A stretch of DNA of 33,342 nucleotides, taken from assembly GCA_009693305.1 (NCBI GenBank), contig SHXN01000006.1, positions 1 to 33,342 of the forward strand, in the 5' to 3' direction. Source of the DNA: Limnohabitans sp. GTDB taxonomy: Bacteria > Pseudomonadota > Gammaproteobacteria > Burkholderiales > Burkholderiaceae_C. The notes beneath the pieces were generated by a model that was given only the letters and a program-made list of their open reading frames with translations, searched no databases and was not told where the DNA came from. Below are positions 17,378-20,044 of this stretch, piece by piece. Both the position numbers and the translations under genes were made by a program. Every line of letters starts with the position of its first letter. Positions within the stretch are counted from its first letter, which is position 1.

Positions 17378-18265
17378 ATGAATACCGCAACATTAGATGT
17401 CTCGGCATCCAACAAAATTGAATTAGAAAATCACAAACTCGAAAAACGTTTGTGCAGACAAGTGGGCGACGCCATCATCACTTACAACATGATTGAGCAA
17501 GGCGACCGCGTGATGGTGTGCATGTCGGGCGGCAAAGACAGTTACGGAATGCTTGATATTTTGCTCAAACTGCAACAACGTGCACCGATTGAATTTGAAA
17601 TCAACGCGGTCAGCCTCGATCAAAAACAACCGGGGTTTCCAGATGAAATATTGCCTAATTATTTCAAGCAGCTCGGCGTGAAATTTCACATTGAAACCAA
17701 AGACACGTATTCAATTGTGAAACAAAAAATTCCTGAAGGAAAAACCATGTGCAGTTTGTGCAGTCGACTGCGGCGTGGCATTTTGTATCGCGTGGCTGAC
17801 GAATTAGGCGCAACTAAAATTGCATTGGGACATCATCGAGACGATATTTTGCAAACATTTTTCTTGAATATGTTTTATGGCGGAAAGCTAAAATCGATGC
17901 CGCCCAAATTGGTGAGTGACAACGGTGGGCATATTGTGATTCGTCCATTGGCATATGTAGCCGAACGTGATTTGCAACGCTGGGCCGAGATCCGTGAGTT
18001 TCCAATCATTCCATGCTCATTGTGTGGGAGCCAAGATAATTTGCAAAGACAAATAGTGGGCGATATGTTGCGTGAGTGGGAAAAGAAAACGCCAGGGCGT
18101 TTGAGCAATATGTTTCATGCGTTGCAAAATGTTGCGCCTTCGCATTTGTTGGATACGCAGTTGTTTGATTTTAAAAATTTGCAAACGACTGGCGTTGAGG
18201 ATGCAGATGGCGATAAAGCGTTTGATGTGGAAATGCCGATGATACGGGGGATTGGAATCATTTAG
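17378..18265 (+). CDS. ttcA: tRNA 2-thiocytidine(32) synthetase TtcA
   Basis: PP-loop [62 protein letters not shown]. Confidence 0.95.
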
Positions 18266-18297
18266 GGTTAATTCATTTTTGTTCTGAGCTCGCGGTG

Positions 18298-18378
18298 GTG
18301 TGGGGCGCACTCCTCCACGGCAAGCCGATGTCGTCGCGCACCCCACACGAACAAAATTGGGGTCAGATAACAATTAAT
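18298..18378 (+). repeat. structured repeat, copy A: hairpin plus ATTGGGGTCAG tail
   Basis: Hairpin GTGTGGGGCGCAC / GCGCACCCCACAC (18298-18310 / 18336-18348, 11 of 13 pairs) with 25 nt loop TCCTCCACGGCAAGCCGATGTCGTC, then ATTGGGGTCAGATAACAATTAAT at 18356-18378. Confidence 0.85.
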
Positions 18379-18540
18379 ACCGCACGCATAGGCAGTAGTT
18401 GCCGACAACTCATTTAATTATTTAAATATTAACTTCATTGACAAAGAGAATCAGCGATTGTTGCGAGTCGCGCCATGCTTGCAATTAGTTTCAAGCAATC
18501 TCGTCAGTAGTAATTTTTAATTTTTTAAATTAATACTTCA

Positions 18541-19058
18541 ATGAACGAAACAAAAGCTTTGAGTACGCAAGCCCGTTACTACTCAATTCATCATCTTCTT
18601 TTTCGCACCGCAGAAATTGCTCTCAAAGAGGCTATCGACAGCCCCGAAGTGCACAGGATCAACGCATTAAAAGCAATTATTTTTTCTGCACTCGGAACAG
18701 AGGCATTCATTAACGCGTTGGGCAATCGAACACGTGCAGACTGGAATAAATTCGAACGCAATTCGTCAACCATTTAAAAAATTGAATCAGTTGGCTTTTA
18801 AAGCTTAGAAATGACATTGCTCACAGCAAACCTAAAGATGTTCGAATAACACAGGAGCTAAATAAAATCGAAATAAAAAATATGAGTCTTGAAATTTCCC
18901 GGTCAAATCTTGAAAAACAACTGCCAGTTGAAAATGCGCAAACGGCAGTAACGGCTACCAAAGCTATGCTTGAGTTGTTTAGACCAATAGTTCTGGATCA
19001 AAAAATCGTATTTGAAATATTTTCAGACGCTTCGACAGGTTCAATTACTTTAAATTAA
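18541..19058 (+). pseudogene. degraded HEPN-like protein gene
   Basis: Intact N-terminal part (MNETKALSTQARYYSIHHLLFRTAEIALKEAIDSPEVHRINALKAIIFSALGTEAFINALG...), then frameshifted KKLNQLAFKA, then from 18804 LRNDIAHSKPKDVRITQELNKIEIKNM...ELFRPIVLDQKIVFEIFSDASTGSITLN* ending 19058. RNDIAH fits the HEPN R-x4-H motif. Confidence 0.65.
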
Positions 19059-19139
19059 TCGTTACCTGACCCCAATCAAAGGGGGGAGGGGTTAGGGCGG
19101 ACGACGATTTTGGCTTGCCGCTGAGGAGTCCGCCCTAAC
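19054..19139 (-). repeat. structured repeat, copy B (inverted relative to copy A)
   Basis: Perfect 12 bp stem GTTAGGGCGGAC (19091-19102) / GTCCGCCCTAAC (19128-19139); minus-strand loop TCCTCAGCGGCAAGCCAAAATCGTC (20/25 identical to copy A loop); tail ATTGGGGTCAGGTAACGATTAAT on minus at 19076-19054 (21/23 identical to copy A). Confidence 0.85.
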
Positions 19140-19180: not shown

Positions 19181-20044
19181 TTACTTTTTATAAGCAATCA
19201 CTTTCTGACGTTGTTCACCCAAGCCCTCAATACCCACCGTCATCACATCGCCCCTTTTCAAGAACACAGGCGCTGGCTTTCCGTCTTTCTTAACGCCCAT
19301 ACCCACCCCTGGAGGTGTACCGGTTGTGATCACGTCACCGGGCATCAATGTCATGAATTGACTAGTATAGCTAATTAACTTAGCCACATTAAAAATCATG
19401 GTCTTGGTATTGCCGTCTTGCATGCGCTTGCCATTCAAATCCATCCACATGTGAAGTTTTTGTGGATTAGGCAATTCATCACGCGTTACCAACCAAGGAC
19501 CAATTGGGCCGAATGTGTCGCAACCCTTGCCCTTGTCCCATGTGCCGCCGCGTTCAATTTGAAATTCGCGCTCACTCACATCGTTGACCACACAATAACC
19601 CGCCGCATAACTCAATGCATCTTTGAGTGATACGTAAGAAGCCTTGGTGCCGATGACAACGCCGAGTTCAACTTCCCAGTCGGACTTAACTGAGTTTTTA
19701 GGCAACATCACATCATCATCGGGTCCTTGAATGGAACTGATGGCTTTGGTAAAAATAATAGGCTCAGAAGGAATGGGCAAGCCCGCTTCTGCTGCGTGAT
19801 CGGCGTAGTTCAATCCAATCGCAATGAATTTGCCAATGTGTTTGACGGGGCATCCCATGCGAGGCGTGCCGCGCACGAGCGGCAATTTGTCGGTTTTGAG
19901 TTTTTGCAATTTGGCCAAAGCTTTGTCGCTCAAGTGCTCGGGCGTGATGTCATCAATCACACCGCTTAAGTCACGCAGTTTGCCGTGTGCATCGATGAGG
20001 CCTGGTTTTTCTTTGTCGAGGTTGCCGTAGCGAACGAGTTTCAT
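19181..20044 (-). CDS. fumarylacetoacetate hydrolase family protein (2,4-diketo-3-deoxy-sugar-acid hydrolase-like)
   Basis: MKLVRYGNLDKEKPGLID...IGLNYADHAAEAG...SDWEVELGVVIG...VVNDVSEREFQ...TGTPPGVGMG. Confidence 0.85.
   Translation of the reverse strand: MKLVRYGNLDKEKPGLIDAHGKLRDLSGVIDDITPEHLSDKALAKLQKLKTDKLPLVRGTPRMGCPVKHIGKFIAIGLNYADHAAEAGLPIPSEPIIFTKAISSIQGPDDDVMLPKNSVKSDWEVELGVVIGTKASYVSLKDALSYAAGYCVVNDVSEREFQIERGGTWDKGKGCDTFGPIGPWLVTRDELPNPQKLHMWMDLNGKRMQDGNTKTMIFNVAKLISYTSQFMTLMPGDVITTGTPPGVGMGVKKDGKPAPVFLKRGDVMTVGIEGLGEQRQKVIAYKK

Follow-up and report, generated by a model that had tools for sequence, protein, structure and literature searches.

Two apparently unrelated repeat systems overlap between ttcA and an FAH family gene in Limnohabitans

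In a Limnohabitans genome, the gap between a ttcA-like gene and a fumarylacetoacetate hydrolase (FAH) family gene has the appearance of a bounded cargo unit, which raises the question of whether its contents do form a single mobile element. We analysed a stretch of 33,342 nucleotides (the window; contig SHXN01000006.1 of GenBank assembly GCA_009693305.1), which is one of the contigs of a 2.14 Mb genome with a completeness of 82%.

Layout of the ttcA–FAH gap

The gap contains two inverted pairs, GC-rich hairpins on the outside and ATTGGGGTCAG units on the inside, with one short ORF between them. A first-pass annotation had accurately described this layout as inverted structured elements bounding a decayed ORF, and a mechanical search found both pairs: I1 (18303-18343 / 19095-19135, 41 nt, 78% complementary) and I2 (18356-18378 / 19054-19076, 23 nt, 91% complementary). 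The ttcA and FAH genes are adjacent in approximately 19 loci of the genus. The features of the gap and its two neighbouring genes are:

17378..18265, plus strand: ttcA-like PP-loop ATPase gene, left neighbour (PF01171, E = 8e-14)
18284..18293, plus strand: CTGAGCTCGC, the outer end that intergenic hairpins conserve (shared by 35 of the 135 copies collected; 0 when the arms are reversed)
18298..18348, plus strand: hairpin copy 1, decayed, sense to ttcA (counterparts in the same place in loci L018, L021, L023 and L029)
18356..18378, plus strand: RAYT/TIRYT-type inverted-repeat unit ATTGGGGTCAGATAACAATTAAT (ten genome sites; brackets Y1_Tnp genes in relatives)
18541..18777, plus strand: 5' part of the pseudogene, a 78-aa ORF (resembles residues 26-90 of a homologue of 207 aa)
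18804..19058, plus strand: 3' part of the pseudogene, beginning LRNDIAH (RX4H motif; resembles residues 124-206 of that homologue)
19054..19076, minus strand: second RAYT/TIRYT-type unit ATTGGGGTCAGGTAACGATTAAT, inverted (pair I2; ten-site genome search)
19091..19139, minus strand: hairpin copy 2, decayed, sense to the FAH gene (counterparts in the same place in loci L015, L017, L018, L023 and L029)
19181..20044, minus strand: FAH family gene, right neighbour (PF01557, E = 4.5e-70)

We consider it probable that two unrelated repeat systems overlap at this junction, namely a worn hairpin dimer and TIRYT-type units around a pseudogene. Once the two systems are told apart the cassette would become ordinary, and the site would serve as a caution that two repeat families with a preference for gene ends can pass for a bounded cargo unit.

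The inner repeats and their transposase

We found the inner repeat at ten sites in the window's genome when up to 3 mismatches were allowed, compared to 0 for the control. The majority of these sites are single intergenic units, with one bare two-unit palindrome at contig C45, and single units commonly adjoin stop codons, as the right-hand unit of the window does. The repeat is widespread in the genus, where it has other bases at its variable positions.

These repeats are linked to a transposase gene, and their variable bases match it genome by genome. A Y1_Tnp family search of the relatives returned one copy in most genomes, and in most of the approximately 30 loci listed the gene is flanked on one or both sides by inverted GGGGTCAG units. 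Across 20 genomes, the variable bases of 68% of dispersed units equal those beside the transposase of their own genome, vs only 17% when the transposase variants were dealt among genomes, and the observed value was reached in 0 of 10,000 such deals (relatedness uncorrected). The first-pass annotation had suggested that a RAYT-type enzyme might move the unit and that a RAYT/Y1 transposase with matching ends should be sought in the genome. Such a gene is present: the only Y1 transposase gene of the window's genome is split over two contig ends (C110, L200; C93, L201), with residues 1-137 at one end and residues 154-231, with an inner repeat behind them, at the other. However, the suggestion holds only for the inner repeats, as no hairpin was found beside the transposase in the approximately 30 Y1 loci inspected. 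The ATTGGGGTCAG repeats would be inverted-repeat units that belong with the resident Y1/RAYT transposase (TIRYT type), an enzyme which may spread both single units and inverted pairs.

In Di Nocera 2013 (PMC3733652), such units are the TIRs of TIRYT genes and carry the motif GGGGWSAS, and in a later survey (PMC6006769) most such units are assigned to TnpAREP subclass 2.1. The motif is present, as GGGGTCAG, at both inner repeats of the window. As in the published TIRYT units, inverted GGGGTCAG repeats bracket a Y1/HUH transposase gene, and there are dispersed single units as well as tight inverted dimers. No difference was found in the features compared, and a passenger between units is absent from the excerpted TIRYT description. 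Judged by their sequence the inner repeats are of TIRYT type, an already known kind, for which cutting and binding by the transposase are putative here.

The interior gene

The gene between the inner repeats has lost its middle and its frame is broken, with the remainder after the 78-aa ORF lying out of frame and the stop codon overlapping the right inner repeat. An intact 207-aa homologue containing RFRNDIAH was found in another genus of the family (L209, ORF 1429-2052). The earlier suggestion that this cargo is HEPN-like is plausible, as RNDIAH agrees with the RX4H motif seen in HEPN proteins and is kept in the intact homologue, but none of the Pfam, NCBIfam and PADLOC models recognises the protein and there was no PDB match. 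The idea of a defence cargo is unsupported. The interior gene is a pseudogene of a HEPN-like candidate, and nothing more specific. No second copy of the interior was found in the window's genome or in the relatives, and it is absent from all of the other-species ttcA–FAH loci compared, of which those with paired hairpins have a short unrelated spacer.

It is possible, though unlikely, that 18356-19076 is a non-autonomous RAYT cassette, in which the resident transposase mobilises, in trans, a passenger gene lying between inverted units. The two units are inverted like those of the transposase units and stand at a similar distance (approximately 720 bp, vs roughly 770-1,200 bp in many transposase units), the genome encodes the cognate enzyme and the palindrome at contig C45 shows two units with nothing between them. 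However, RAYT-type repeats also bracket an intact endonuclease III-like gene, nth, in two genomes (L202, G004:C329; L203, G010:C47) and a plain intergenic stretch in another (G400). Because nth is a housekeeping gene, bracketing alone is no proof of a cassette, and these cases indicate that it arises without cargo transfer, the two nth loci serving as a natural control for bracketing by chance. The lack of a second copy of the interior and the frequent position of single units next to stop codons, like the right one here, also count against a cassette, and a search for a clean empty-site pair showing one interior unit arriving whole found none. It is most likely that the inner repeats landed separately on either side of the pseudogene, one of them flush with its stop codon.

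The hairpins at the ttcA–FAH junction

Hairpin copy 1 is made up of the arm GTGTGGGGCGC, the core CTCCTC..CGGCAAGCC..TCGTCG and the arm GCGCACCCCACAC, and copy 2 reads GTTAGGGCGGA-CTCCTCAGCGGCAAGCCAAAATCGTCG-TCCGCCCTAAC on the minus strand. As single copies, neither folds better than shuffled sequences while an intact relative does (z = -8.9 vs shuffles), and the two hairpins of the window are therefore relics. An Rfam scan gave chance-level matches only, and no match to the locus or the core was found in the plasmid DNA and viral contigs searched. We rejected intrinsic terminators as the identity of the hairpins, as neither is followed by a T-run (a U-run in the transcript), and also an integron attC site, as the terminal GTTRRR/YYYAAC is in the wrong orientation.

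At the same junction in relatives, a convergent hairpin pair was found in three loci (L018, L023 and L029), copy 1 only in L021 and copy 2 only in L015 and L017, and no hairpin in L022, L026, L027 and L033, where an ordinary terminator fills approximately 60 bp instead. Because other species carry the same convergent pair here without the cargo, the hairpins belong to the locus, and the interior is a later or separate matter. The first-pass annotation had proposed that its mobile unit would be refuted by two elements unique in the genome, or by a layout conserved vertically in distant relatives, and for the hairpins the outcome goes against the unit. In the whole 2.14-Mb genome the hairpin core has 2 matches, both at ttcA–FAH (reversed-pattern control 0), and the hairpin layout is common to relatives, though its presence varies by species. 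What remains in the nearest relative, G034 (L014), is one inner repeat, the final bases of the pseudogene and, from both hairpins, halves without a pairing partner; we rejected this genome as a pristine empty site, since it is a deletion derivative which has lost what the window still has.

We think it improbable that the hairpins act as RNA, that is, as 3'-end structures which stop transcription or protect convergent messages and which owe their persistence to selection, not to spreading. Each hairpin is sense to the gene reading towards it and the arms covary, in agreement with such a role, but no U-run follows the hairpins, dimers within genes put one sense and one antisense copy into the same message, and several species have no hairpins at this junction and an ordinary terminator in their place. 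The original proposal, that the hairpins are the recognised ends of a mobile unit spanning 18298-19139, is largely refuted and has very little probability left, since the two hairpins are indeed related and inverted but the pair occurs at the same junction elsewhere with a short unrelated spacer replacing the interior, single hairpins occur at this junction and genome-wide, no Y1 gene in the loci inspected adjoins a hairpin and the hairpin family is separate from the inner repeats. Under the reading of two overlapping repeat systems, the hairpins would be a convergent dimer, worn by now, from a REP/RPE-like family of palindromes which has been at ttcA–FAH since before the species split.

The hairpin family in related genomes

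We uncovered this dispersed family by relaxed pattern searches of the relatives. The core was present in 46 of 400 relatives, with up to 17 exact-pattern copies per genome and almost nil for the reversed control. Its constant parts are YTCCTCATR and AAATCGTCR, with a short variable hairpin between them (CTGGGGTACCAG, CTGCGAGCAG, CGGCAAGCC and others), although this conservation is partly by construction, as the core is part of the search pattern. The core is flanked by arms of approximately 20-26 bp which differ between sites and pair within a site: in 31 non-redundant copies, arms paired with their own partner at 12.1 of 15 outer positions vs 5.1 with swapped arms, and 0 of 10,000 permutations reached the observed sum (relatedness of the genomes uncorrected). 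Approximately 20 hairpin pairs lie within 250 bp of each other, every one of them convergent.

The intergenic hairpin type has conserved ends, GCTGRGCTCGCT and AGACTGCGG, outside the variable arms, and the arms therefore belong to the element. A comparison of L021 with L018 had suggested that arms are copied from the target flank at insertion, which we rejected as the conserved ends lie beyond the arms. We found no transposase next to the hairpins, and no clean empty-site pair showing one hairpin arriving whole, the pairs G267/G344 and G058/G050 both being blurred by other insertions. Hairpin copies may spread as a folded single strand, recognised by some enzyme via the internal loop (YTCCTCATR opposite AAATCGTCR), and would be retained where they are harmless, at gene ends and in protein linkers. 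Separately, RAYT-type repeats and hairpin pairs were seen together in one intergenic gap at L284 (G058:343-347 kb), L262 and L277, which is perhaps commoner than chance.

Many hairpin copies lie in coding sequence, in frame, within the linkers of uvrA, leuS, a dnaE2-like polymerase and formate dehydrogenase alpha; these names were read from the protein sequence, with a profile match only for the 2Fe-2S domain of formate dehydrogenase alpha. The intragenic copies have one open register per orientation, GSSxxxxKSS or DDxxxxHEE. A UvrA-type protein of approximately 2,200 aa (L118, G267:C54; also L119 and L121-L123) has three linkers, each of which is encoded by a convergent hairpin pair.

Comparison with known palindromic repeats

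The family resembles RPE-4, RPE-6 and the CGTC-tagged REPs in its dispersed palindromes, head-to-head dimers and in-frame copies in uvrA, dnaE2 and tRNA synthetase genes. Other bacteria are already known to have REP and RPE copies inside such genes, and the behaviour of the hairpins in genes is therefore of a known kind. However, CGTC REPs and RPEs have a fixed stem of 8-9 bp and an unpaired tag at one end, whereas in the hairpins a conserved internal loop separates the variable inner hairpin from the long site-specific outer arms. The tag arrangement of CGTC REPs, RPE-4 and RPE-6 (CGTC directly before an 8-9-bp stem starting AT, with a CCA tail) was not found in the hairpins, where CGTC lies 3' in the core and a long variable arm comes next. 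A GTAG REP identity was rejected, as the core is without GTAG and no hairpin was found in the approximately 30 Y1 loci inspected. The hairpins are like REPINs and BIMEs in that a short spacer (approximately 100-215 bp) separates two palindromes in inverted orientation, but differ from them in that no cognate transposase was found beside them and their stems are not a shared sequence.

A conserved internal loop with free stems is not among the REP and RPE families described for in-gene copies, and the core sequence strings had no match in open papers. Of the repeats at this locus, the hairpin family alone looks undescribed, everything else being known. We propose, tentatively and as something short of an even chance, that the hairpins represent a mobile palindrome class of their own, outside the GTAG/CGTC superfamilies, with internal-loop recognition, both stems free, one tolerated register in genes and a mover enzyme so far linked to no palindromic repeat. 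The family is worth following: it is a large group of palindromes, found outside Rickettsia, that insert in frame into DNA-repair and other core genes. Comparing sites with and without a hairpin would show the origin of the stems and the agent that moves them, an open point for CGTC-type repeats. It should also be noted that one hairpin (L117 / L123, G439:C29 near 17344) is a hybrid whose arms derive from the two different members of a pair, with the join falling exactly on the edge of the core, and looks as though an exact deletion between the pair members had produced it.
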